A stretch of DNA of 64,000 nucleotides, taken from the IMG/VR virus record IMGVR_UViG_3300036832_000855, positions 1 through 64,000 of that record; one strand, given 5' to 3'. Made by a program: the position numbers and the translations under genes. The stretch comes from a virus. Under the pieces are notes generated by a model. The model saw only the letters and a list, made by a program, of their open reading frames with translations, searched no databases and was not told the DNA's origin. The stretch's first letter is position 1. Every line of letters begins with the position of its first letter. Shown here in pieces: positions 8,049 through 20,483 of the stretch.

Positions 8049-8069
8049 ATCCTAGCACAGATCATGTGT
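8049..8069 (-). promoter_or_regulatory. Operator-promoter site 3
   Basis: GCACA-GATCA-TGTGT at 8055-8069 next to a minus-strand TAGGAT at 8049-8054. It overlaps the stop codon of the polyprotein gene 8069-10711 and drives 7862-8041. Confidence 0.65.
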
Positions 8070-10711
8070 CAGACGACCCGGTCCAGCGCGTACCAGAGCT
8101 TCTCGCCGCTCGGGCTCGTCGCAACCTCCACCCAGCCACCCGTGCCGCTGCCCTCATCCGGCCTCAGTCCGGTCACGAAGCCTTCGAGCAAGCCCCCATC
8201 CGCCAGCCGAACCTGCACCCGATCATGGCGCTGGATCGTCTGTCCCGCCTTGGTGACCAGGCTTGAGATCTCGGTCTCGATGTCCGACAGGTCGGGCCGG
8301 ACGATCGGCTCGAACTCCTGCGTGGCCGAGAGACCGGGTGAGGGCAGCGCGGCGCCCAGGTCGGTGACGTTCGGTCGCCTGATCTGCGCCAGCCGGATGA
8401 TCTCCGCGTACTGCTGCTCCGGGGTCATCTGGAACTTCATCATGCGGAGCTGCTGGCGCCGCTGCCCGTCGTCCAGGCCCGCGTCGTCCATGAGCTTCTT
8501 GAGCTGCGTGCGGTAGTCGAAGTAAGTGCCCGTGACGTTGTAGTCGTCCGGGTTGCGCTTCACCGCTTCGAGCACGTCGGTCATGCCGTAGGAGCGCAGC
8601 CAGTCGGCGACCTCCAGGTGCGCGGTCTCCTCGGTGAGTCCCTCCTCGACGTTCTTGCCCAGCCCCTGGTAGTTCCTGGAAGTGATGCCGCCGTCCACGC
8701 CGACGCCGTGGTTGATCTCGTGCTGCAGGATCTCCAGGTCGTTGTAGAACCTCAGGTGATCCCGGTCGCTCTGGGACACGCCGGGGTTCGCGGCAGCGTA
8801 CGCGCGGCCTGACAGGTAGTGCTCGATGTCGTCGAGGTAGCGCTTCTCGATCGAGATGGTGCCGTTCCACTCGTGGACGGCGGCGGCGCCGTCGTTGACG
8901 ATGTCGTGGACGACAGCCGCCACATTGACGCCGGTGCCGTACTTCTGGCCCAGCTCGTCGGCACGGCCGAGCGTGTCGACTAGCAGCTCGTCGAGGTTCT
9001 TCGGGGCCTGGCCCTCCGGTAGCCGGGTGCGCCTGCCGCCTTGCGGGTTCGGCGTGATCTGCACCGCGATCACACCTCCGCGCTTCTGCTCCTCCGTCAG
9101 CCGCCGGTCGTCGCGTGGCCCCTCGATCACCTTCTCGTCCGGTTTGGACAGGTGCAGGTTGCCGCCCCAGTCGACGTTGTACCGGTTGCCGTCCTCGCCC
9201 TGCAAGATGGCCCACAGGCCCTCGGGGTGATTCGACGTCACCTCGCGACCAACCCAGTTGTAGTGCTGGGTCGCCAACCGCTTGACTACTGCGTCACGCC
9301 GCGCTTGCCACGCCGCCGCTGCCGCTGACGATCCAGAGCCAGCGGGGCGCCGGTCGTTCTCCTTCCTGAGGTCGACCACCGCCTGATAGGTGAGGCGATC
9401 GTCGAGCTTCCCGTTGGGGTCCAGCATCTGGTCGACCGCGTCCTCCATCTCCTTGTGCCAGTCCTTCTGCTCCTTCTGGCCCACGATCGTCACGGTCTCG
9501 CCGTGCTTGCCGCGCAGCGTGTCAGTGATGCCGTCCGCCTCGGTGGTGCGCTGGCGGTGTTGCAGCCCGGCGCTCTCCAGCATCGCGGACGCGTCAGCCA
9601 TGCTCTGGTTCCCCAGCGCTCTGCGCAGCGCCTCGCCGTTGGCGCTGGTGACCGCCGATTCGATCGCGGCTACGGCCTCGGCCCGCTTAGCGCGAGCTTG
9701 CTGCACGCGAGCTTCACGCTGGGCGCGCTCAGCCGCGATCTGGGCCTGGCCCTCCTTCCACACGCGCACCTCTTCGGCGCGCATCTCAGGCGTGGCGATC
9801 ATGTGATCCCAGACCATCGACCCGTGGCCCGCGTTCATGACCTCCAGCCCGCCGCCCTTCTTCTGGCGCAGGTGGAGCACGAGCGAGTCGGGTGGCTCGC
9901 CGGGCTCGACGAACTGCTTGTCGAACCGGGTGAAGCCCTCGACGCCGAACGGCAGGCTGCCGGTCGGCAGCTCGTCGCGGTTGAGCGACTTGCTCATCGT
10001 CCAGCCGCTGTCGATCATGTGCAGCGCGTTGACGACCGGCCCAGCGTCATCGCCGGGCTTGATGGAGGAGAACGGGTCGGCGCGCACCTTGGTCATGAAG
10101 CCGTGCCACTCGTCGGGGCTCATCTCCTGCGCGGGCCCGCCGGGTGCCACCGCTGTGCGCGGCGCCTCGACACGGGTCCACTTGCCGTCGCGTAGCTCGA
10201 CGCGGTGCAGACGATCGGGGGGGATCACGTCCTGCGTCAGGACCGCGTGCCCGATGCCCTCGGGGTCCGGCCTGACGGACACGTCGTGCGTGTCGACCTC
10301 CCAGACGTCGTGCAGACTTGGCGCGTACATCTGCTGGACGGCCTCGGGGCTGGTCCACAGGTAGTTGCCGCGCGACTTCATCGGCTTGGTGCCGACGATC
10401 GGCATGCCCCTGGTGCTGTCGATCCCGTGCTTCTCGATCTCCGCGCGCTTGCCCTTCGGCGCGACGTGGAACATCTTGTTGATCCACTTCCCACCGCGCC
10501 CGCGCGGATGAAGCTCTTCGGCGTAGCTCGCCTCCTGCATGCCGCCGAGCACGGCGCGGATGCTGTCCTTCGACTCCTGCGCGATCCGGCGCGAGAAGTC
10601 GCGCATATCGTCGGTCACGCGCGCGTCGCGCTGGCGCTGCTCCTCGGCAGCGTCGCCCTGCTCCTCGGCGCCGATCACGCCGTCGCCCACGGTCAGTGGT
10701 GCCCAGCTCAC
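8069..10711 (-). CDS. Head-module polyprotein with ART-like and zinc-metallopeptidase domains (880 aa)
   Basis: Residues 67-74 carry the delimiter LHPRGRGG. It is followed (about 80-180) by FHVAPKGKRAEIEKHGID and NYLWTSPEAV, a pattern like the 'HVap...I...Gl' start of ADP-ribosyltransferase/RNA-2'-phosphotransferase-like folds. The middle (about 300-400) is a charged coiled-coil-like helix. Near residue 660, ILQHEINHGVGVDGG with EEGLTEE downstream is an HExxH zincin with a candidate third ligand. The C-terminal 60 residues form a small beta barrel-like segment (HDRVQVRLADGGLLEG). Its ATG overlaps the stop of the 1110-aa polyprotein. Probably packaged in the virion and delivered with the DNA; this is inferred from position after portal and MuF. 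Confidence 0.65.
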   Translation of the reverse strand: MSWAPLTVGDGVIGAEEQGDAAEEQRQRDARVTDDMRDFSRRIAQESKDSIRAVLGGMQEASYAEELHPRGRGGKWINKMFHVAPKGKRAEIEKHGIDSTRGMPIVGTKPMKSRGNYLWTSPEAVQQMYAPSLHDVWEVDTHDVSVRPDPEGIGHAVLTQDVIPPDRLHRVELRDGKWTRVEAPRTAVAPGGPAQEMSPDEWHGFMTKVRADPFSSIKPGDDAGPVVNALHMIDSGWTMSKSLNRDELPTGSLPFGVEGFTRFDKQFVEPGEPPDSLVLHLRQKKGGGLEVMNAGHGSMVWDHMIATPEMRAEEVRVWKEGQAQIAAERAQREARVQQARAKRAEAVAAIESAVTSANGEALRRALGNQSMADASAMLESAGLQHRQRTTEADGITDTLRGKHGETVTIVGQKEQKDWHKEMEDAVDQMLDPNGKLDDRLTYQAVVDLRKENDRRPAGSGSSAAAAAWQARRDAVVKRLATQHYNWVGREVTSNHPEGLWAILQGEDGNRYNVDWGGNLHLSKPDEKVIEGPRDDRRLTEEQKRGGVIAVQITPNPQGGRRTRLPEGQAPKNLDELLVDTLGRADELGQKYGTGVNVAAVVHDIVNDGAAAVHEWNGTISIEKRYLDDIEHYLSGRAYAAANPGVSQSDRDHLRFYNDLEILQHEINHGVGVDGGITSRNYQGLGKNVEEGLTEETAHLEVADWLRSYGMTDVLEAVKRNPDDYNVTGTYFDYRTQLKKLMDDAGLDDGQRRQQLRMMKFQMTPEQQYAEIIRLAQIRRPNVTDLGAALPSPGLSATQEFEPIVRPDLSDIETEISSLVTKAGQTIQRHDRVQVRLADGGLLEGFVTGLRPDEGSGTGGWVEVATSPSGEKLWYALDRVV

Positions 10712-13700
10712 TTCTTGCCCCCCTTCTTCGCCTTCTTGGCCGCCGCTTCCTTACGCGCCAGCTCGTCGCTCAGGTACTTCTGCTGCACCCAGATGACCGC
10801 CTGCGCCTCCTGCGGCAGCCAGCCCATCTCGTGCGCCACCGCAACCACCTGGTCGGCAACCCACTTGTAGCCCGACCCCCCGGCCTTCTCAGCCAGGATA
10901 TCGCCGAGCCCCTCGGCGGTCGTTGCCTTGCCGTACTCCTTCTTGCCGACGGTGCCGAGCGTCGCGCGCCCCATGTGCGCGTCGATCGTGGCGGTCGTCT
11001 CAAGCTGCGGCCACGCCAGGTTGTTGTAGAACGAGCGCGTCTTCGGAGCGTTCAGCACAACGTCCGGGTTCTCGCCGCGCGCGAGCCGCACCGCCTTCTC
11101 GACGGACGTCCCGAGCCCGCCGAGATCGTTGACCGCCAGCAGGTGGTCGACGAGCGCGGGCGCTGGCACGTTCGAGTACGCGCGTGCCGCCTTCAGCGAG
11201 CGGAGCGCGAGATCCAGGTTCGGGTAGTCGATCTCGCCGGTGTCCTTGTCGGTGTGATCCCAGGACAACTGTGGCGACGTCGCCGCGACCATCGCCGCGA
11301 ACGTGGTCGGGTCGACGTTGTTCGCCTTCGCGATCGCCTCGATCTGGTCGTGCGCGGTCTGGTACCAGTGCTGCTGGCGGTCGGCGACGCCGCGATCCTG
11401 CGCGCCCTTGATCAGGGCGCGGAAGCGTTCGCGGACAACCTCCGGGTCGAGCCACTTCTCCGGGGCCTCGCCGCGCTGCGCGACCGGCTCGGGCGTCGGC
11501 GTGAGCCGGTTGAGCGCGTCCTCGTACTTCGGGCGCAGATGCTCCAGCTCGGGCACGAGCCGCCCCAGGTTGTGCTGCAGGTCGGCGCGCTTGACCTCGC
11601 GCGCCAGCTCCCCGGCCGTGCCCTTCGCCGTCGCGATCCGCTCGATGTAGTCGTCGTAGTTCATGTCGTCGCCCGGCGGGCGCGTCAGCAGCTTGATCGC
11701 GTCGAGCATCTCGTCTGCCTGCTCGGGCTTCGTGACCCGGGGCTCGATCAGCGCGGCTCTCAGGTCTTCGGGCGTCAGCTTGGTGTCTTCGAGCGCGTCG
11801 TGGAACAGCGCAACCGGCTTCGCCCGGTCGCTCACCGAATCGGCGACGGCGAGCACATGCTCGATGTACGGCCGCTTCTGCAGGTCGGTCTGGCCCGCGT
11901 GAGCGTTGTTGGCGACGTTGTAGAGCTTGTGCAGCCACCGACCACGCAGGCCGCCGCTCGGGACGTACTCGCCCGCGGCGCGCGCTGACCGACGGGCACC
12001 GCCGGACGGGCGCTCGGGAACGTACTCGCCCGGCTTGCCGGTCGGCTCCCACCCGGCCACGACCTTGCCCAGCTCGGCGGCGGCGTCCTGCGCCTCGGTG
12101 CGCTTCGCCCGTCCCGCCCTGGTGGTGCTGGTGCGCGCAGTCGCGGCGCTCTTGCCCTTCGGCGCCTTGATCTCCTTCAGCACGACCTTCGCGGTGTGCT
12201 CGCGCACCTCGGGCGACTCCTTGGGCAGACGCAGCCGGACGGCTTCGCGGACCATGTCCTGGTAACTCTGCCCTTCGTCCTTCCAGCCGTGCTGCTTCTG
12301 CAGCCAGCGCCCGAGCCGATCTCGCGGGTGCAAGACCTCTTGGTAGATGTTCGCCTCGGCCAGCTCGACCGCCTCCTCGGCGTGCTGGGCCGCCAGGCGC
12401 TCGGCGCGCTGCAGCAGCCACTCCCGCCGGTTCAGGGTCGGGTTGACCACGACCTCGCCTAGTAGCTGGCGGAGCACGGCGCCCATCCGCGGCCCGGGCT
12501 CCATGCCGTTCGCGATCAGGTCGTTGCCGGTCACGTTCAGATCCTTCAGCGAGCGCGGCGCCTCCACGTTCTCGGCCAGCAGCCCGCGCAGCTTGTGCAC
12601 GCCCTCCAGGCTCTTCGCGATCGCGTCGCCGTGGCCTTCCATGTCGGCCTGCTTGTGGTCCAGCAGGTCGGTCAAGAAGCGGTCGGAGTGCAGGGCGCGC
12701 AGGCGGCGGGCCTTGACCGGCGTCGGCTTCTCGACGGCCGTGAGCATGTGCTCGCGGACGAGGCCGGTCACGTGGTTGATCGTGTCCCGCGGGTAGTTCA
12801 GCCGCTCCAGCGTGCTGCGCGCGATGTTGGCGCCGACGTCCTGGTGGTTGCCGTGCTCGGGGTGCGAGTGAAAGCGGAACGTGTCGGCGCCCGGCTTGAG
12901 ATTCGCGGTGGCTGGCTTGCCCGAGTCGTGGAACAGCGCCGCCAGCCGCGCCTCGTAGCTCGCACCCATGCGCGCCAGCTCGTCGACCACCTCGAACGTG
13001 TGCTCGTCGAGCACGTGCTCGTGGTAGGGCGAGCGCTGATCGAAGCCGACCATCGGCGCCAGCTCGGGGAGCAGCGCCTGGAGCATGCCGGTGTCGCGCA
13101 TCACCCGCAGCGCCTTGCCGGGGTCGTCGCCCATCAGCAGCTTGCGCAGCTCGTCCTGGACGGTGCCGGACACGCCCTTGTTGGTGAGCGCGGTCATGCC
13201 ACCGGAGTCGCGGCGCATCAGCGCCAGCGTCTCGGCGTCCGGCTCAAGGTTGTGCTGGGAGATGAACCGCGCGCCGCGAAGCATACGCAGCGGGTCCTCC
13301 TGAAAACTGGTGTCATGGACGACGTGCAGGATGTGGCTGCGCGCGTCCTCGACGCCGCGGCCGGTCGGGTCGGTGATCACGCCCGTCTTCGGGTCGCGGT
13401 ACAGCGCGTTGACGGTGAAGTCCCGGCGCTGCGCGTCGTCGGCGAGCATCTGCTCGGGTGTCGCGTCGCCGCCCAGGCCCGGGTGCGGCACGATCGTGAA
13501 GTCGTGGCGTCCGGCGCCGGTGGACTGCTCGACGCGCGGCGGGACGATCTCGACGCCGCCGGGTGGCAGGTCCGGGTGCGTGGCGCGGACGCCGACGAGC
13601 CGGTCGCGGACCATCAGCGGCTCGGCCTTGCCGCCCGCGTCCTTCACCGCCTGCTGGATGCGCTCCGGGTGCTCGACGGCGACGTAGTCGATGTCCTTCG

Positions 13701-14040
13701 GGGTCTTGCCCAGCAGCTCGTCGCGCGGCGCCCCGCCGACCTCGCGCAGGTGCGCGAGACCCAGCTTCTCCATCCACTTGCCACTCCGATCGCGCGGGTG
13801 AAGCGCCTCGACGTACTTGGGCGGACCGTAGTCCGGCCCGTGGACCATCCGCATGCGCTCCCAGAAGCTCTCGGGCGTGTCCTTGTGCTGGTGCGCCTCC
13901 TGTAGCTCGCCGTTGCCGTTGCTGTCGACGAGCGCCTTGACCCGCTGCCAGAACTCGAAGTCGTCGCCGGGCTCGTCTGGCGCGTCGGACAGGCTCGGCA
14001 TGCCGTCCGAGACGATCGCCGCTGCCGTCGCCCAATCCAT
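10708..14040 (-). CDS. Head-module polyprotein: nucleotidyltransferase-HD, Mesh1-like HD hydrolase and DUF7178-like domains (1110 aa)
   Basis: Delimiter LHPRDR at 80-85. Then a CCA-adding/poly(A)-polymerase class II core: GGAPRDELLG 102-111, catalytic DID 116-118, RRDFTVNAL 205-213, EDPLRMLRGARF 248-259, followed by an HD domain (H371, D372). A second delimiter is LHPRDRLGRW 570-579, then a basic linker and a degenerate delimiter (GGLRGRWLHKL 696-706). Next comes a Mesh1/SpoT-like alarmone hydrolase: H714, H728, FHDALEDT 746-753, D820 and N824. The C-terminus (about 885-1090; VAATSPQLSW, APKTRSFYNN, TIDAHMGRA) resembles a domain recurrent in actinophages, provisionally DUF7178-like. Start 14040 overlaps the stop of the upstream gene. 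Domain calls are from motifs; virion packaging is inference. Confidence 0.75.
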   Translation of the reverse strand: MDWATAAAIVSDGMPSLSDAPDEPGDDFEFWQRVKALVDSNGNGELQEAHQHKDTPESFWERMRMVHGPDYGPPKYVEALHPRDRSGKWMEKLGLAHLREVGGAPRDELLGKTPKDIDYVAVEHPERIQQAVKDAGGKAEPLMVRDRLVGVRATHPDLPPGGVEIVPPRVEQSTGAGRHDFTIVPHPGLGGDATPEQMLADDAQRRDFTVNALYRDPKTGVITDPTGRGVEDARSHILHVVHDTSFQEDPLRMLRGARFISQHNLEPDAETLALMRRDSGGMTALTNKGVSGTVQDELRKLLMGDDPGKALRVMRDTGMLQALLPELAPMVGFDQRSPYHEHVLDEHTFEVVDELARMGASYEARLAALFHDSGKPATANLKPGADTFRFHSHPEHGNHQDVGANIARSTLERLNYPRDTINHVTGLVREHMLTAVEKPTPVKARRLRALHSDRFLTDLLDHKQADMEGHGDAIAKSLEGVHKLRGLLAENVEAPRSLKDLNVTGNDLIANGMEPGPRMGAVLRQLLGEVVVNPTLNRREWLLQRAERLAAQHAEEAVELAEANIYQEVLHPRDRLGRWLQKQHGWKDEGQSYQDMVREAVRLRLPKESPEVREHTAKVVLKEIKAPKGKSAATARTSTTRAGRAKRTEAQDAAAELGKVVAGWEPTGKPGEYVPERPSGGARRSARAAGEYVPSGGLRGRWLHKLYNVANNAHAGQTDLQKRPYIEHVLAVADSVSDRAKPVALFHDALEDTKLTPEDLRAALIEPRVTKPEQADEMLDAIKLLTRPPGDDMNYDDYIERIATAKGTAGELAREVKRADLQHNLGRLVPELEHLRPKYEDALNRLTPTPEPVAQRGEAPEKWLDPEVVRERFRALIKGAQDRGVADRQQHWYQTAHDQIEAIAKANNVDPTTFAAMVAATSPQLSWDHTDKDTGEIDYPNLDLALRSLKAARAYSNVPAPALVDHLLAVNDLGGLGTSVEKAVRLARGENPDVVLNAPKTRSFYNNLAWPQLETTATIDAHMGRATLGTVGKKEYGKATTAEGLGDILAEKAGGSGYKWVADQVVAVAHEMGWLPQEAQAVIWVQQKYLSDELARKEAAAKKAKKGGKK

Positions 14041-14457: not shown

Positions 14458-17400
14458 TTAGGCACCGATGACGCGTACGGCGTGAACCTTCAGCTTCGCG
14501 ACCGGGACGCGCCCGTACTTCGTCTCCTCGGTCTCGGTCCGCGGTCCGGACACACCCGAGCGCTCCTCGTTGGCGTGCTGGTTCGGCGAGTCGGGCGTCC
14601 ACGAGTAGTGCGGGATGCCGTATTCGGAGTCCGGTGCGACCTTGGTGTGGAACTCGACCAGGACCCGGCCTCTCGCGCGCTCACCCGCGATCGTCTTGTC
14701 GTCGGGACGCCGCGGCTGGGCGCGGACTGCAGAGATGCCGCGGCCCTGGGTGCCCGGCAGCCCCCACACCACACCGTTCTCGGCGATCTTCCGCGCCGAC
14801 TCGGGTGACTCGAAGCGGTACCAGGTGCGAGCGGCCACCTCGGCGTTCGCCTGTTCGCGCTCGGCTGTCTTGCGCGCCTTGCGTTGAGCCTCGTCAGCGG
14901 CCAGCTCCGCCGTGATCTCGGCTCGCAGCCGCTCGCTCTCAACGCGATCGTGCACGGTCTTCGCGGCCTCCTCGGCCGTCCCGTACAGCATCGTCGCGCC
15001 GTCGGGGCGCGTGACCTCGTAGCCGTGGCGCGTGCGGGCGACTCGATGGCCGTCGGGCAGCTCGACCCGGCCGCCGCCCCGGCCGCGCAGGCTCGGTCTC
15101 GGAAGCTCCTTGAGCATCTCGGCGAAGTGGCCGTGCCAGCCTCGCGCGTGCTTCGTCGGATCCCAGAAGCGCTGCACCCCGATCTCGGCCCGCTCGATGA
15201 GCGCCAGCTCCTCCTCGTACGCCTCCCGCAGGCTGGGCGCCGTGACGGTGACCGGCCGTGATCCCTTCCAGCGCGAGCCGATCAGGAGCTGCTTGCCGAG
15301 CCACGTCCGCCCCTCGTGGGTCGGAGCGGGCCGGTCGTAGGCGCCGCGCACCTCGGGCAGCGCCTCCTCGTGCCACGGCCGGTCGATGCCGTAGGCCGCC
15401 AGCTCGGCCTCGGAGGAGAACTCGCCCCGCTCGATCTTGCCCTCGAACTCGGACAGCGCCGCCGGTGGCGTGTGCTTGACGATCTGCGCCCAGCGCCCGT
15501 CGGCTTTCGCGTCGGCCACGATCCGCTGCTGCTCGGCCTTTGCGTCGCCGGTCCACACGAACCCGCGCCGGGCCCACGCGTAGCCGCCAACGGAGACCGC
15601 CTCGACGTTGATCCGGTCGACGCCGCCCTCGCGCAGCGTCTTGAACAGGTGATCGGTGAACGCCCGGCCGAAGCCGTGCTGCTGCTCGCCCTCGCGGAGG
15701 TAGATGTTCGCGTACTCGGCCACGCGCTCCTCGCGGTTGTTCGGCGGCCGGACGATCACGCGCGCCAGCCCGACCGGCCGCTCCTCGCCCTTCTTCTGCA
15801 GGTTCAGCCACACCTCGCCGTACAGGTTCTGGACGCTGGTGCGGTTGGCGCGTACCGCCACGATCCCACCGTGCTCGAAGCCATCCATCGCGCGGGCGAA
15901 GTCCTCGCCGGTGAAGCCCTCGTGCGGCTCTGCGGGCTCGGTCTGCTTGATCTCGTGGTGGATCGCGTCGACCCATACGCCACCCCGTCCGCGCGGGTGG
16001 AGCCACTCCGTCCAGTGCTTCTCCTCCAGCTCCGCCGTCTCTTGCAGCGCCCCGATGTGCTCCAGGACGGCGCGCTCGGCCTCGTCCCAGTCGGTGAACG
16101 TCGGGACCGGCTCGACCGGCTCGCCGCCGTGGCCCATGAACACGACGTCGGGCGAGTCCAGGCTCGCCATGTCCCAGCCTTCCGGCTTGTGCTCGGGGTC
16201 GAACTTCAGGCGCACCACCTCGGTGAACCCGTGGCGCCGGTAGATCTTGGGCAGCGCTCCGTCGAAGCAGTTCAGCCACGTCCCGCCGTTCGCGACGGCG
16301 TGGTCGAGCGCTACGCCCCCGGCGCCCTGGTCGTTGTTCGCGAACAGGTTCCCGACCTCGCCGTCGGCCGAGACCGTGACGCCGGTGTGACCGTCGTCGG
16401 AGAGCCAGACTCGCTTGGCGCCTAGCTCTTCTTGGGACGGCTGGGTGATGAACTCGGAGTGGGGGTTGGCCTTGACGGCGTCGGTGTAGCGCTGGTACCC
16501 GGCGTCGGTGGACGCATCGAGCGGGGCGAGGCGAACCAGGTCGGCTCCCCGTGCTCGTCCACCGCTCCCGTCAGGGCCTCGCGCTTGAGCTGCTCGTTGT
16601 CCATTGGCTTCCTTCGTGAGCTTAGCAGCCGAGGTTGAGTCGGGCCGCACGAACAGGCCCTCCTCCGGATCCTTGTACATGACGGGCGAGACGGCCGTCA
16701 CCTGGCTCATCGGGATCCGCTTGCGCGTACGCAGGTAGCCGTCCTCGTTGCGGGTGAACCACTCTTCTTCGGGCCGCACGGTCATCTTCGCGATCACCGA
16801 CTCCGCGCCGCGCGGCAGGTACGACTGCGACGTCTGCGGGTCGATCCCCGCGTTCGTGCCCTCCCAGCTTCCGATCACGCCGCGCCGGTCGGACTGGATG
16901 TACCCGCGCTTGACGGCCTGGTTCCACTCGTCGATGCTCATGCCCCGGTACAGCTCCTTGATCGGCTCGGTGCCGATCGCCTTCGGGAACATCTGGTCGC
17001 CTGCGTGCTCGCCGTAGTCGGTCACCTTGAAGACGGGCTCGCCGTCGGTGTCCGGCGGGGGCTGCTGAACCGACAGCCACTTGCCGACATGCACGTCGTA
17101 GCCGGACTTCGGGTGGGTCTCCTTGCCGCCGTCGAGCTTCTGCGGGCTGAACCACTTCTGGAAGTTGTCGTCCATGTTCGCCAGCGTCACCGGCGTGCCC
17201 AGCTTCGCGCGCTCGTCCAGGTGCTTCTCGATCGCGTCAGCGACCACCTCCGGGTCGTACGTCTTCACCCGGTTGCCCGCCCCGACGCGCACGCTGTAGC
17301 CCTCGTCCTTGAGCCGCATGACGCTGTGGCCCTCGACGTCGGTGATGTCGTCCATCTTCGCGGCCTTGACCTGGCTCAGGATGTGGACCCAGCGGCCACC

Positions 17401-18420
17401 CCGCCCGCGCGGATGAAGCGCCTCGGTGTACTCGGCCTCCGCGAGCTGCATGAGCGCGCGCTCAACGCTCGGCCGAACCGGCAGACCGTCCAGGTAGTCG
17501 TCGATCTCGCCCGGATCGGCAACCGCCCTCACGGCCTCCTCCAGGGCCATGGCGGCCCGTGCCATCCGCATCGCCTCGCCGGGAGGTGGCACCTCCGGGG
17601 ACTGCGCCTGCGGCCGCGGCAGGTTGCGCGCCGCCTGCTGGCGCGCGACGGTTCCGAACCCGCCCGCCGCCTTGACATCCGCCCGCCACTTCGCCCAGTC
17701 CTCAGCGCTGACGCCGGGCAGCGGCTTCAGCCAGCAGCCACAGCCGGTGTGTATGGGCGGCGGGATCGTGTCGAGCACTTCCCACGGCCAGGCCTTGCCC
17801 GCCAGCGCGAGACACCCGGCGGTGTGGTTCTTGCGGTTGCCGAGCATCCAGATGGCGCCGTCCGGGGACTTCTCCTTGACGATCGCGTTCTCGCAGTGGG
17901 CGGTCGCGCGGTCGAGCAGCGCCTTCTCGCGCAGCTTCGCGTAGTGGCGCTCCCGGTTGAGGATCTCGACGGAGCGCTGGTTGCGCGCCTGCTTCGTCGG
18001 GAGCTGCCCGGCCGCGTGCAGGTCGCGCTCGGTCCGGGCCAGAGCCTTGCGCTGAAACGCCTGCTCGAAGCGCATCTCGCGCTCGACCGCTTCGCGAATC
18101 ACGGCCGGGTCGAGGTTCGGGTAGCGGCGCTTCAGCTCGTTCTCCAGCCACGTCGCCGACTCCATGTGGTGGCCCTTGAACAGCTTGCGCAGGATGCGCA
18201 GCGCCAGCGCCACCTTGACGCCGAACTCGACCGGCTCGGCAGCCGCGGACACGACGCCCGCCGCGGCGGCTGCGGGTCTCGTGATCGCGTATCCCGGGCC
18301 CGCGACGGCCACCTTCGCAGCCTGCCCGGCGGCACCGATCGCCGCGCCGGTCTGCGCGGCGTCGAGCACGCGCTGAGTGTCCGGATGCGTCTGCGGCGCC
18401 TGCTGGTCGGGGATCGCCAC
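14458..18420 (-). CDS. MuF-type minor head protein fused to ART-like and GNAT-like effector domains (1320 aa)
   Basis: The N-terminal 240 residues are a MuF/gp7-type portal-associated domain: helical start, then HCENAIVKEKSPDGAIWMLG and the HTGCGCW finger at 224-230. LHPRGRGG at 335-342 opens a second region holding ELYRGMSIDEW (489-499) and later LPRGAESVIAKM, an ADP-ribosyltransferase-like pattern. Residues about 640-765 (GNLFANNDQGAGG, LNCFDGALPKIYRRHGF) match an acetyltransferase-like domain common in phage MuF polyproteins. LHPRGRGG at 807-814 precedes a GNAT domain (EQQHGFGRAFTDHL 912-925, YAWARRGFVW). A variant delimiter (KHARGWHGHF 1090-1099) precedes another ART-like tail. Located just after the portal gene. 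Confidence 0.75.
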   Translation of the reverse strand: MAIPDQQAPQTHPDTQRVLDAAQTGAAIGAAGQAAKVAVAGPGYAITRPAAAAAGVVSAAAEPVEFGVKVALALRILRKLFKGHHMESATWLENELKRRYPNLDPAVIREAVEREMRFEQAFQRKALARTERDLHAAGQLPTKQARNQRSVEILNRERHYAKLREKALLDRATAHCENAIVKEKSPDGAIWMLGNRKNHTAGCLALAGKAWPWEVLDTIPPPIHTGCGCWLKPLPGVSAEDWAKWRADVKAAGGFGTVARQQAARNLPRPQAQSPEVPPPGEAMRMARAAMALEEAVRAVADPGEIDDYLDGLPVRPSVERALMQLAEAEYTEALHPRGRGGRWVHILSQVKAAKMDDITDVEGHSVMRLKDEGYSVRVGAGNRVKTYDPEVVADAIEKHLDERAKLGTPVTLANMDDNFQKWFSPQKLDGGKETHPKSGYDVHVGKWLSVQQPPPDTDGEPVFKVTDYGEHAGDQMFPKAIGTEPIKELYRGMSIDEWNQAVKRGYIQSDRRGVIGSWEGTNAGIDPQTSQSYLPRGAESVIAKMTVRPEEEWFTRNEDGYLRTRKRIPMSQVTAVSPVMYKDPEEGLFVRPDSTSAAKLTKEANGQRAAQARGPDGSGGRARGADLVRLAPLDASTDAGYQRYTDAVKANPHSEFITQPSQEELGAKRVWLSDDGHTGVTVSADGEVGNLFANNDQGAGGVALDHAVANGGTWLNCFDGALPKIYRRHGFTEVVRLKFDPEHKPEGWDMASLDSPDVVFMGHGGEPVEPVPTFTDWDEAERAVLEHIGALQETAELEEKHWTEWLHPRGRGGVWVDAIHHEIKQTEPAEPHEGFTGEDFARAMDGFEHGGIVAVRANRTSVQNLYGEVWLNLQKKGEERPVGLARVIVRPPNNREERVAEYANIYLREGEQQHGFGRAFTDHLFKTLREGGVDRINVEAVSVGGYAWARRGFVWTGDAKAEQQRIVADAKADGRWAQIVKHTPPAALSEFEGKIERGEFSSEAELAAYGIDRPWHEEALPEVRGAYDRPAPTHEGRTWLGKQLLIGSRWKGSRPVTVTAPSLREAYEEELALIERAEIGVQRFWDPTKHARGWHGHFAEMLKELPRPSLRGRGGGRVELPDGHRVARTRHGYEVTRPDGATMLYGTAEEAAKTVHDRVESERLRAEITAELAADEAQRKARKTAEREQANAEVAARTWYRFESPESARKIAENGVVWGLPGTQGRGISAVRAQPRRPDDKTIAGERARGRVLVEFHTKVAPDSEYGIPHYSWTPDSPNQHANEERSGVSGPRTETEETKYGRVPVAKLKVHAVRVIGA

Positions 18421-18458: not shown

Positions 18459-20483
18459 CTAGTGCCCGGCGCCGTTCGCGGCGGCGTCGGCCAGCACCCC
18501 GTCGATGATCTCGCCCAGCTCCTGCTCCAGCAGCGCCTCCAGCGCCGCTTGGGCCTCGTTCATCTGTCCCTGGTTGCCCTGGTACTCGGACGATTGGCCC
18601 TGCGCGCCGTACGGGTTCTGCTGGTCCGGGCCTTCGCCGGGCGGTGGCCCGCCAGGTCCGAACATGTTCGGCCCGGCGTCGCCGGTAGGGATCAGCGGCG
18701 GCGGCGGCCCCGGCGGCGGCCCGCCACCTCCGCTCATCTGCGCGGCGAGGAGCGGGTCGACGTAGCCCTCGGGCAGGATCCGTTCGACAGCAGCGGCCGG
18801 GTCAGCCATCTCCAGACCCTGCCCGAGCGCCACCCCCAGAAGTGTCCTACTTAGCTCAAGATTTGTGTTATTAGGATCGAAGGTACGCGCTAAATTAGCG
18901 ATCGAGTTGATGAGGTCCGCCATCTGGCGCTTGAGCGGGTTCGGCATCGAGAACTCGTAGCTCAGATCCCGCTCGGTGTCCTCCTCGTCCTGCGTCTGGC
19001 CCTCGTAACCAGCACTCAGCGCCGTCGGTCCGGCACCGTTCGAGGTGGGCTCGGTCACCGAGGACGGCGGCTCGCTCTGGATGGGCGCCGCGGGCGCGTT
19101 GATCCCACCGGCACCCGGCACCTGATTCTCCGACTTCTTAGCCTTGAGCCTCGCGCGCTCCTCGGGCGTCAGCGCGGTCGGCAGCGTGCCGTTGTCGACC
19201 GCCAGCCGAATCGACTGGTCGATGAACGTGCGGAACAGCCCCTCGAACAGCTCCTGGAACGCCTCGACCTTCTTGACCACCGGCAGCTCCAGCGCCGACG
19301 CCGTCGCCAGGTTCGCGTTCGACTGGTCGCCGAGGTAATGCTGAGGCCAGGTCGCGGCGCTGATCTGGGAGCGGATCATCTGCGCGTCCTGCGCCGCCTG
19401 CGCCGCCTGCGTCGGCACGGTGAACGGCTGCGTCGTCACGCTGTCGGAGTCGTTCAGGATCGAGCCCGGCCGCGGGCCCGGCTTGATCGTGCCCATGTTC
19501 GGATCGTCGATCGAGGTGGCGGCGAGATCGGACCGGCGGGAGATCGCCTTCGCGGCGATGTTCGCCACCTGCTGCGGCGTGCCCTTGATCGAACGGCGCA
19601 TGATGAACGCGGCGGCCGCCTGCGTCAGGTCGACGCGAGCGGCCATGAAGTCGTTCAGGGCGGCCATCCACTTCACGATCCGGCGCATCGCCGGGACGCC
19701 AAACACCTGCTCGGAGCCTCGGTTGATCGCGATGTGGTAGACGAGCCCCTCGCCGAGCTTCTGAGGCGGGCACTGGTCGTCGAGGCTGTCCAGGTCGCCC
19801 GTCTCCGGGTCGGTGGCGGCGAGCGCCTGGTAGTACATGACGCGCGGCTTGCTCGGGTCCTGCGCGTCCATCTGCGCCGTCATCGACGGCCGGTCGTTGG
19901 CGAAGTCCCAGCCGTAGGTGCGGCGCCGGGCGACGTAGTACAGAACGCGCAGCCGGTTGTTCGAGTCGCGGACCACATCCTCGACGGAGTCGTGATCGAG
20001 CAGGCCGAGCTTGACCTTGCCGTCGTCGCCCTGGAAGAACAGCAGGAACAGGTTCGACTGGAGCACGAGATCGGTGCAGAGCGCCACCTGTGCCGGGAAC
20101 GTGGTCAGGACCGCCTTGTTGTCCGGGTCATCCCACGCCTCATCAATGACCTCCTGGACCTTCTCGTCCGCCGCCTTCGGCTTCGGGACGCCGCGGCCGA
20201 AGATGAAGTTGCAGCTCAGCTCGACGTTCGCCCCGGCCACCGGATCCTGTACCCAGACCATGCGCGACTGAGCAGCCATCCGGCGGCGCTCGGTCGGTCT
20301 GACCTCCTGCGGCTGGCCGCCGATGTAGTCGAGCACGTACCACCCGAGCAAGTCCAGCTCTTTTTGCATGGCGCGACGCTCGACATCGGACGCTTCGAGC
20401 AGCTCGACGTAATTGCGGTCGATGACGGTCTTGCCGGTGCGCTCCTCGATCTGCTCCTGCAGGCGCTTCGTCCAGTCAGGCAT
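18459..20483 (-). CDS. Portal protein (674 aa)
   Basis: Forms the DNA-entry ring of the capsid vertex. The N-terminal half has the portal order LDLLGWYVLDYIGG..., LSCNFIFGRGVPKP, LLDHDSVEDVV and YHIAINRGSEQVFGVPAMRR (the 'G.s.l......w' region). The later part has VEAFQELFEGLFRTFIDQSI. The C-terminal 110 residues are Gly/Pro/Gln-rich. Synteny with the MuF gene 38 bp downstream supports it. About 70 bases of the coding region (18840-18905) are AT-rich with rare codons. Confidence 0.85.
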   Translation of the reverse strand: MPDWTKRLQEQIEERTGKTVIDRNYVELLEASDVERRAMQKELDLLGWYVLDYIGGQPQEVRPTERRRMAAQSRMVWVQDPVAGANVELSCNFIFGRGVPKPKAADEKVQEVIDEAWDDPDNKAVLTTFPAQVALCTDLVLQSNLFLLFFQGDDGKVKLGLLDHDSVEDVVRDSNNRLRVLYYVARRRTYGWDFANDRPSMTAQMDAQDPSKPRVMYYQALAATDPETGDLDSLDDQCPPQKLGEGLVYHIAINRGSEQVFGVPAMRRIVKWMAALNDFMAARVDLTQAAAAFIMRRSIKGTPQQVANIAAKAISRRSDLAATSIDDPNMGTIKPGPRPGSILNDSDSVTTQPFTVPTQAAQAAQDAQMIRSQISAATWPQHYLGDQSNANLATASALELPVVKKVEAFQELFEGLFRTFIDQSIRLAVDNGTLPTALTPEERARLKAKKSENQVPGAGGINAPAAPIQSEPPSSVTEPTSNGAGPTALSAGYEGQTQDEEDTERDLSYEFSMPNPLKRQMADLINSIANLARTFDPNNTNLELSRTLLGVALGQGLEMADPAAAVERILPEGYVDPLLAAQMSGGGGPPPGPPPPLIPTGDAGPNMFGPGGPPPGEGPDQQNPYGAQGQSSEYQGNQGQMNEAQAALEALLEQELGEIIDGVLADAAANGAGH

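Follow-up and report, generated by a model that had tools for sequence, protein, structure and literature searches.

A phage polyprotein joining a CCA-type nucleotidyltransferase to a small alarmone hydrolase, a candidate head-delivered protector of tRNA 3' ends

Results

The window analyzed here is the 64,000-nucleotide stretch that opens IMG/VR virus record IMGVR_UViG_3300036832_000855, and all of its features given with coordinates below lie on the minus strand. One open reading frame (ORF; 10708..14040) encodes a polyvalent protein of 1110 amino acids in which sequence and structure prediction place, in order, a pro-segment, a first header, a CCA nucleotidyltransferase with an HD domain, a second header, a small alarmone hydrolase (SAH), and a DUF7178 domain. 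The reading that we favor, at a probability of about one half, is that this is a head-borne multi-effector protein that would be cut in the prohead and ejected with the DNA, keeping host tRNA 3' ends chargeable.

The frame opens with MDWATAAAIV... at 14040 and runs uninterrupted until its stop codon, which ends at 10708; these are the coordinates first assigned to it. An in-frame GTG upstream would lengthen the protein to 1150 amino acids; in the alignment of orthologues the N terminus is kept from M1 on. The four orthologues (including those of L001, L002, and L050) share 66 to 70% overall identity with the query. By domain, identity is 79 to 88% for the CCA module, 60 to 64% for the SAH, and about 50% for DUF7178, and by this comparison the latter two evolve faster than the first. 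Because dN/dS is unreliable at this high GC content, just its ranking was used, and it makes the CCA module the most constrained. A whole-protein scan of the genome contigs yielded no relative, and a tblastn search of INPHARED with the entire 1110-residue protein yielded no record with 80% coverage, the best matches listed being CCA-domain homologues. Homologues of all three domains also exist as stand-alone phage ORFs, and PADLOC matched none of the cargo proteins. The N-terminal pro-segment (residues 1 to 48; 13897..14040) is conserved and is also found in G012, a relative with the same gene frame and neither a CCA nor an SAH module. The original prediction had identified the two enzymes correctly but overlooked both DUF7178 at the C terminus and the header that repeats along the protein.

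The CCA-type nucleotidyltransferase

Matches above the curated Pfam cut-offs (as is that of DUF7178) divide the first enzyme into a nucleotidyltransferase head (PolyA_pol, residues 101 to 238; 13327..13740; 4e-17) with GG..RD, DxD (D116/D118), and RRDFTVNAL motifs, a PolyA_pol_RNAbd neck (residues 294 to 329; 13054..13161; 3e-8), an HD phosphohydrolase domain (residues 345 to 438; 12727..13008; 2e-7), and a tRNA_NucTran2_2 tail (residues 497 to 544; 12409..12552; 1e-7). With the HD domain the module spans residues ~97 to 545, and its motifs read GGAPRDELLGKTPKDIDY, RRDFTVNAL, EDPLRMLR, and FHDSGK. The class II motif set and HD domain attributed to it from sequence were thus borne out by Pfam, by motifs invariant in the four orthologues, and by Foldseek. 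The active-site residues of the CCA, HD, and SAH domains are unchanged in all four, while up to half of the other positions vary, and the loss of catalytic residues that would have spoken against two working enzymes was not seen; the active site is conserved too in a fifth CCA module, 52% identical. An AF2 model covering residues 80 to 847 has a mean pLDDT of 82.1, with values above 90 over most of the CCA and SAH domains, and both the polymerase-beta fold and the HD metal site emerge confidently from it and from Foldseek. Against the PDB, the CCA module matched CCA-adding enzymes from 1e-15 (3wfr), including those of Bst (TMt, 0.79) and human mitochondria (TMt, 0.77).

Class II CCA-adding and poly(A) polymerases have their head domain in common, and together with the Pfam name PolyA_pol this gives some footing to the proposal that the module is a poly(A) polymerase, marking host RNA for decay or stabilizing phage RNA. 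We consider it very improbable, since the module scores 85.9 bits with Escherichia coli Cca versus 50.5 with PcnB, NCBIfam CCA models lead pcnB by 136 and 133 bits to 87, the HD domain and an RxE..STG.G...F stretch are common to the module and Cca, and Foldseek places CCA-adding enzymes far ahead. The same NCBIfam scores fall below the equivalog cut-offs (136 versus 438.8 for tRNA_CCA_actino and 133 versus 451 for PRK10885), and the module is therefore a distant member of the family, no equivalog of the cellular enzymes. By sequence and predicted fold, residues ~97 to 545 are a class II CCA-type nucleotidyltransferase, whose activity may be CC-adding only, A-adding only, or full CCA addition.

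Phage tRNA nucleotidyltransferases (phrog_2244, and the jumbo-phage CCA-adding enzymes, for which RNA repair has been proposed [PMC7824862]) have the same domain order and motifs. All CCA enzymes that we found outside headed proteins are stand-alone ORFs of 315 to 618 amino acids, whereas the present one is part of a cargo polyprotein and has a header in front of it. That the enzyme matures the phage's own tRNAs lacking an encoded CCA, its location in a large ORF being incidental, accords with the phage tRNA-Glu(CTC) gene, which is followed by CCT and not CCA. Yet the CCA module does not follow phage tRNA gene content: no tRNA gene was detected in G002 and G014, which both carry the module, and G012 has a tRNA-Glu without it, although these records may be incomplete. 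Bacteria already possess a CCA enzyme, which should suffice for such maturation, and the activity would be oddly placed in a headed, portal-adjacent protein; we give this explanation little credence. The advantage that an injected CCA enzyme would have over the bacterial one is not apparent from sequence.

The small alarmone hydrolase

The second enzyme (residues 704 to 826; 11563..11931) matches phrog_990 (phosphohydrolase) at 2.5e-26, with a Pfam HD_4 match at residues 708 to 763 below threshold (20.1 versus a gathering score of 27.2 bits). Its metal and ED residues H728, HDALED (747 to 752), D820, and N824 are invariant in the four orthologues, and its closest PDB match by Foldseek is the (p)ppApp hydrolase 7smg (8.6e-6; TMt, 0.83; rmsd, 2.6; 31% identity). 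By fold and active-site residues, this is a small alarmone hydrolase, in agreement with its earlier description as Mesh1/SpoT-like. By analogy with this nearest solved relative, the first substrates to consider would be 3'-pyrophosphates of the adenosine type, whether free or on tRNA A76, ahead of ppGpp.

PaSpo, the SAH of Salmonella phage SSU5, strips the toxSAS modification off tRNA (PMC11559606), and the premise of the original prediction that SAHs can undo this modification is compatible with that report. PaSpo, aTfaRel, and the MuF-linked Aph1, reported to reverse pyrophosphorylation of tRNA or nucleotides, have one HD hydrolase domain each and share the metal and ED motifs of the present SAH. 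They are small separate proteins, whereas here the domain is built into a polyprotein that bears headers and also contains DUF7178.

Two further explanations turn on this domain. In the first, the substrate of the SAH is a free alarmone, (p)ppApp or (p)ppGpp, whose removal silences a defense or stress signal; the CCA enzyme would be tRNA-upkeep cargo in its own right, and the two would have no common target. The identity of 7smg points this way, as do the phage SAH Aph1, which breaks down (p)ppApp from MuF toxins (PMC12226406), the jumbo-phage HD alarmone phosphodiesterases, proposed to degrade signals (PMC7824862), the predicted cut between the modules, and a relative, G006, with the CCA module and no SAH. 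However, the four headed SAH modules that we found are all fused behind a CCA module, and we judge this explanation unlikely, if still of some weight. It does not exclude action on tRNA, because related SAHs can also act on modified tRNA. The second casts the SAH as the immunity partner of a (p)ppApp- or tRNA-modifying toxin that the phage itself carries, in the way that Aph1 counters MuF-Apk2, and draws on prophage loci that couple MuF-Apk2 with an SAH immunity protein (PMC12226406). It appears remote: a search for RelA/SpoT synthetase domains found none in G000, G001, G002, G014, G006, and G012, while the control search was positive in 11 of 14 genomes, and the SAH lies inside a headed cargo protein rather than in a separate gene behind a toxin.

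Headers and predicted prohead-protease sites

Each enzyme module is preceded by a header with the consensus L-x-E-A-x-[YWF]-x-E-x-LHPR[G/D]RxG[K/R]W. Header 1, YVEALHPRDRSGKWMEK (residues 76 to 92; 13765..13815), identified in the header survey, precedes the CCA module and follows a predicted prohead-protease site, LQE|A (residues 46 to 49; 13894..13905), assigned by the L/I-X-E rule of T4 gp21, which cleaves after this motif (PMC9026906). A second predicted site, LAE|A, and header 2, LAEANIYQEVLHPRDRLGRW, occupy residues 560 to 579 (12304..12363) in front of the SAH; the linker that follows has an AF2 pLDDT below 50. Given this site, header, and disordered linker, the two enzymes may be separate virion proteins.

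The survey of viral contigs found 27 header stretches, and the header recurs in portal-adjacent and other multidomain proteins of related phages. An [LIVM]xE[ASVG] motif lies upstream of it in 59 of 70 distinct contexts, versus 9.7% of random windows. Behind the header in relatives are ADP-ribosyltransferase (ART), acetyltransferase, metallopeptidase, zeta toxin, and cytidylate kinase modules, effectors that are freely swapped. In a cultured relative of the system, Gordonia phage GodonK, gp67 (MK620899, 26522-30961) lies beside the portal and bears a divergent header. The T4-type pattern L/I-X-E|A/S found at the module boundaries (46 to 49 and 560 to 563) is common to the capsid and scaffold proteins: of nine capsid proteins, seven have L[EQ]E|A in front of the mature capsid-protein domain and the two most divergent have the similar LEEM and VQET there. 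A 477-amino-acid scaffold/protease protein has 11 LxE[AS] sites, versus about 1.4 per 1000 amino acids in other proteins, and its eight relatives, the most distant about 50% identical, keep 6 to 14 each. The matches of the scaffold/protease gene (G000:81390-82823) to head families are weak, and we call it gp21-like on account of its LxE site pattern and position. From these patterns, which lend circumstantial support to the head delivery originally proposed, we infer that the header targets its protein to the capsid and that the prohead protease cuts at the L-x-E|A within it.

In the window, next to the polyprotein, is another headed ORF of 880 amino acids (8069..10711; header LHPRGRGGKW at 10484-10510) with no other recognized domain, and on its other side lie a portal-adjacent polyvalent protein of 1320 amino acids (14458..18420) with two headers, a GNAT-like domain, and ART-like motifs, and the portal protein (18459..20483; phrog_10963, 1.5e-27), whose homologues in cultured phages are just distant archaeal-virus matches.

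T4 IPI-III and P1 DarA likewise place a short tag with an L/I-X-E prohead-protease site on diverse antidefense cargo; here, unlike there, the tag repeats within one polypeptide, once per module, and packaging is predicted. The tag LHPRxRxGKW is not known to be related to the T4 capsid targeting sequence. The T4 internal proteins are diverse defense proteins with only that sequence in common (PMC3012670), and DarA is a substrate of the prohead protease (PMC12810830).

DarA also plays a structural role (PMC12810830), and proteins of the polyvalent and MuF types can belong to the head; a protein whose domains are catalytically spent and which serves only as part of the head would fit these precedents. 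The invariance of the three active sites amid other changes and the free exchange of effectors behind headers make this exceedingly doubtful.

Comparison with polyvalent proteins

Unrelated catalytic domains combined in one long polypeptide beside head genes are the mark of polyvalent proteins, and the present ORF has this arrangement. In the passages searched of the description of these proteins (Iyer et al. 2017, PMC5512222), they are likewise huge, portal-near ORFs with unrelated catalytic domains and proposed codelivery with DNA, and ART, GNAT, and metallopeptidase modules, found in the sister proteins here, occur in them too; the relatives also have LPD1 matches. Within those passages the nucleotidyltransferases are minimal Pol-beta types and the RelA/SpoT domains are synthetases, and we found there neither a CCA-adding enzyme or SAH hydrolase nor a description of the LxEA-LHPR header.

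Discussion

Delivery of the enzyme modules together with the viral DNA is probable, given that both bear an apparent packing-and-cutting label. The precursor would enter the prohead core and be cut at residues 48/49 and 562/563, yielding two tagged enzymes, CCA-HD and SAH-DUF7178, and both would be ejected with the DNA and active before phage gene expression. The SAH might then clear 3'-pyrophosphates from toxSAS-modified tRNA A76, from free (p)ppApp or (p)ppGpp, or from both, while the CCA-HD enzyme might restore tRNA 3' ends shortened by nucleases. Jointly they would keep the host tRNA pool chargeable and protein synthesis running despite defenses that disable tRNA ends.

The "two-step repair unit" first proposed is too strong a description. 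Removal of the pyrophosphate by the SAH leaves a complete CCA end, and CCA addition is therefore no next step in the same reaction; the two enzymes would mend different tRNA lesions. A cut is predicted between them, G006 has the headed CCA module in a record from which the SAH is absent, and G012 has neither. As to co-occurrence, a survey of which had been suggested as a check, every headed SAH found is fused to a CCA module; genes for either enzyme on its own mostly occur apart, and outside the clade the two co-occur in 5 of 30 and 2 of 6 records, a weak link that we do not take as support because genome size is a confounder and there is no proper baseline.

Several antiphage systems target tRNA 3' ends, among them toxSASs such as CapRel, and Cas12a3, and the known phage answers mostly come after the onset of gene expression; enzymes delivered from the head would work from time zero. 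Cas12a3 cleaves the CCA tails of tRNAs (PMC12851939). More broadly, we tentatively propose, at somewhat less than an even chance, an exchangeable head-cargo system in which a tag and a protease site allow effectors joined in one polyprotein to be packed, cut, and injected, here as a preemptive rescue kit for tRNA 3' ends against defenses that clip or modify them. Should the header prove a true packaging-and-cleavage signal, uncultured phages could be searched with it for injected effectors, of which many should have antidefense functions, and it would offer a testable route for loading chosen enzymes into phage heads.

The C-terminal DUF7178 domain (residues 889 to 1085; 10786..11376; Pfam, 7e-16) is a helical fold that recurs in other large phage proteins. 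We found no mention of it in the literature searched. With regard to a possible role as an HhH-GPD DNA glycosylase, a profile search against the PDB gave nothing significant, and the best plausible Foldseek match, to mOGG1, was nonsignificant (probability, 0.35; TMq, 0.38; E, 1.7). One phage homologue carries the annotation "DNA glycosylase," and the stretch K..SF..N...T(V/I)D.H..RA resembles an EndoIII motif.

Architecture of the window protein

The original prediction placed the open reading frame at 10708-14040, a position that we confirmed; the 1,110-aa protein, encoded on the minus strand, begins MDWATAAAIV, and four orthologues share this N terminus from M1 on. Its active-site residues are invariant in the four although overall identity falls to 66-70%. 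Family searches bore out both proposed enzymes, a tRNA nucleotidyltransferase (CCA) module with an HD domain and a small alarmone hydrolase (SAH), and revealed DUF7178 as a third domain. An AlphaFold2 model of residues 80-847 gave confident folds for both enzymes, joined by a disordered linker. In Foldseek searches of this model against the PDB, CCA-adding enzymes ranked first for the front part, and among the matches listed the one for the SAH part was the (p)ppApp hydrolase 7smg (31% identity, TMt 0.83). DUF7178 (window 10786-11376) had no significant similarity to any solved structure; its fold is seen again in large polyvalent proteins of phages, among them B5LJA6 of Mycobacterium phage Myrna. 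Gene calls were made with a simple codon-usage script.

With Escherichia coli Cca and PcnB as yardsticks for polymerase type, the CCA module scored 85.9 bits against the former and 50.5 against the latter, and shares with Cca an HD domain and an R-x-E-x-x-[ST]-G-x-G stretch that is absent from PcnB. NCBIfam models followed the same order (CCA above pcnB), with scores far below equivalog cut-offs. By sequence the module appears to be CCA-adding as a class, within which full CCA, CC-only, and A-only addition all fall.

The window belongs to a 122-kb virus record. Three further viral contigs (G001, G002, and G014; 110-125 kb) carry full orthologues, while a fourth, G008, stops within the CCA module; relatives' records may be incomplete. 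A single 3,918-aa open frame in the related contig G006 (L048:311-12064) combines a CCA module (51%) and seven copies of the header described below with peptidoglycan-binding, several HExxH metallopeptidase-like, GNAT, and ART-like modules; no SAH was found in that record, although the CCA module is present. In contig G012, the orthologous 525-aa frame (L047:5520-7094, minus strand) retains the same N terminus, one header, and DUF7178. The segment that stands there in place of CCA and SAH may be a 2H phosphoesterase, judging by its pair of H-x-T motifs, but it has no Pfam match. The homologues examined in other viral contigs were stand-alone genes (CCA, 315-618 aa; SAH, mostly ~150 aa; DUF7178, 206-220 aa), so the window protein unites in one chain enzymes that are separate products in other phages.

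A repeated header and proposed head delivery

LHPR[G/D]RxG[K/R]W stands before each enzyme module of the window protein and recurs elsewhere in the genome. When viral contigs were scanned with a degenerate DNA pattern encoding E-x-LHPR[G/D]Rx-G-[K/R]-W, 27 stretches turned up, with many copies in several contigs. In 70 distinct contexts, related by descent and not phylogenetically independent, the consensus was L-Q-E-A-x-[YWF]-x-E-x-L-H-P-R, and [LIVM]-x-E-[ASVG] lay within 20 residues upstream in 59, versus 9.7% of random windows from the same proteins; the scan pattern included the E at -2 but not the L-x-E-A part.

Phage T4 gp21 cleaves after L/I-X-E, a Glu-Ala bond being the first such site seen, and the giant phage phiKZ protease cleaves after S/A-X-E (PMC9026906). 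Of nine capsid proteins of these phages, seven have L-[EQ]-E-A just ahead of the mature domain, and the two most divergent have the similar LEEM and VQET there. The neighbouring 477-aa scaffold/protease protein, whose putative protease gives weak profile matches, holds 11 LxE[AS] sites, versus ~1.4 per 1,000 residues in the genome's other proteins, and eight relatives retain 6 to 14. The window protein has exactly two (residues 46-49 and 560-563), each N-terminal of one header. Precedents are the T4 internal proteins, diverse defence proteins with a common capsid targeting sequence (PMC3012670), and P1 DarA, cut by the prohead protease (PMC12810830). From these analogies and motifs we infer that the window protein would be packaged and cut by the prohead protease. 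In the 122-kb record, the genes for capsid and scaffold/protease (79781-82823) are ~45-60 kb away from portal (18459-20483) and terminase, and tail genes occupy the space between.

We assign the protein to the polyvalent phage proteins, a known class (PMC5512222). Phage CCA enzymes and SAHs are also known (PMC7824862); new here are the joining of the two in a putative head-type cargo and a recurring header that has a predicted protease site built in.

Proteins that bear the header contain, among others, ADP-ribosyltransferase, GNAT, zeta toxin, NUDIX, cytidylate kinase, peptidoglycan-binding, and metallopeptidase domains. A 929-aa ORF distant from the portal (G000:102204-104993, minus strand; also L006:18207-20000 and L007:1-993) bears the header GLQESSWAEILHPRGRGGKW near its N terminus, and Pfam recognises in it a zeta-toxin kinase domain (6.9e-22); zeta domains occur as well in headed proteins of L008, L026, and L031, and cytidylate-kinase domains lie within headed multidomain proteins at L047:8649-11258 and L020:3305-6514. 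Whole modules behind the headers set the portal-adjacent orthologues L002:4818-7988 and window 14458-18420 apart: L002 has metallopeptidase-like segments (HEAAH/HEAGH) where the window protein is ART-like. A C-terminal headed GNAT is common to both. A cultured relative, Gordonia phage GodonK gp67 (MK620899 26522-30961 = L158:8953-13392), adjoins its portal gene; its header (WNEALHPRGADGRWIDKL) is divergent, and it also has segments that are kinase-like and ART-like.

Predicted role at tRNA 3' ends

None of the six records searched (G000, G001, G002, G014, G006, and G012) held a RelA/SpoT synthetase, which argues against a toxin-immunity pair. Maturation of the phage's own tRNAs by the CCA module is likewise argued against, as phage tRNA genes and the module are distributed differently. 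An Rfam-supported phage tRNA-Glu(CTC) at L006:14272-14346 has no encoded CCA, and CCT follows it; G001 and G012 have the same tRNA, but a search of G002 and G014, whose records may be incomplete, did not find it.

ToxSAS enzymes attach pyrophosphate to the tRNA 3'-CCA, a modification reversed by the phage SAH PaSpo (PMC11559606); MuF-linked Aph1 hydrolyses (p)ppApp (PMC12226406), and Cas12a3 cuts tRNA CCA tails (PMC12851939). For a pyrophosphorylated end the SAH would suffice by itself, and a clipped end would be rebuilt by the CCA enzyme, so the two would act as parallel repairs of different lesions and not, as first proposed, as successive steps of a two-step repair unit.
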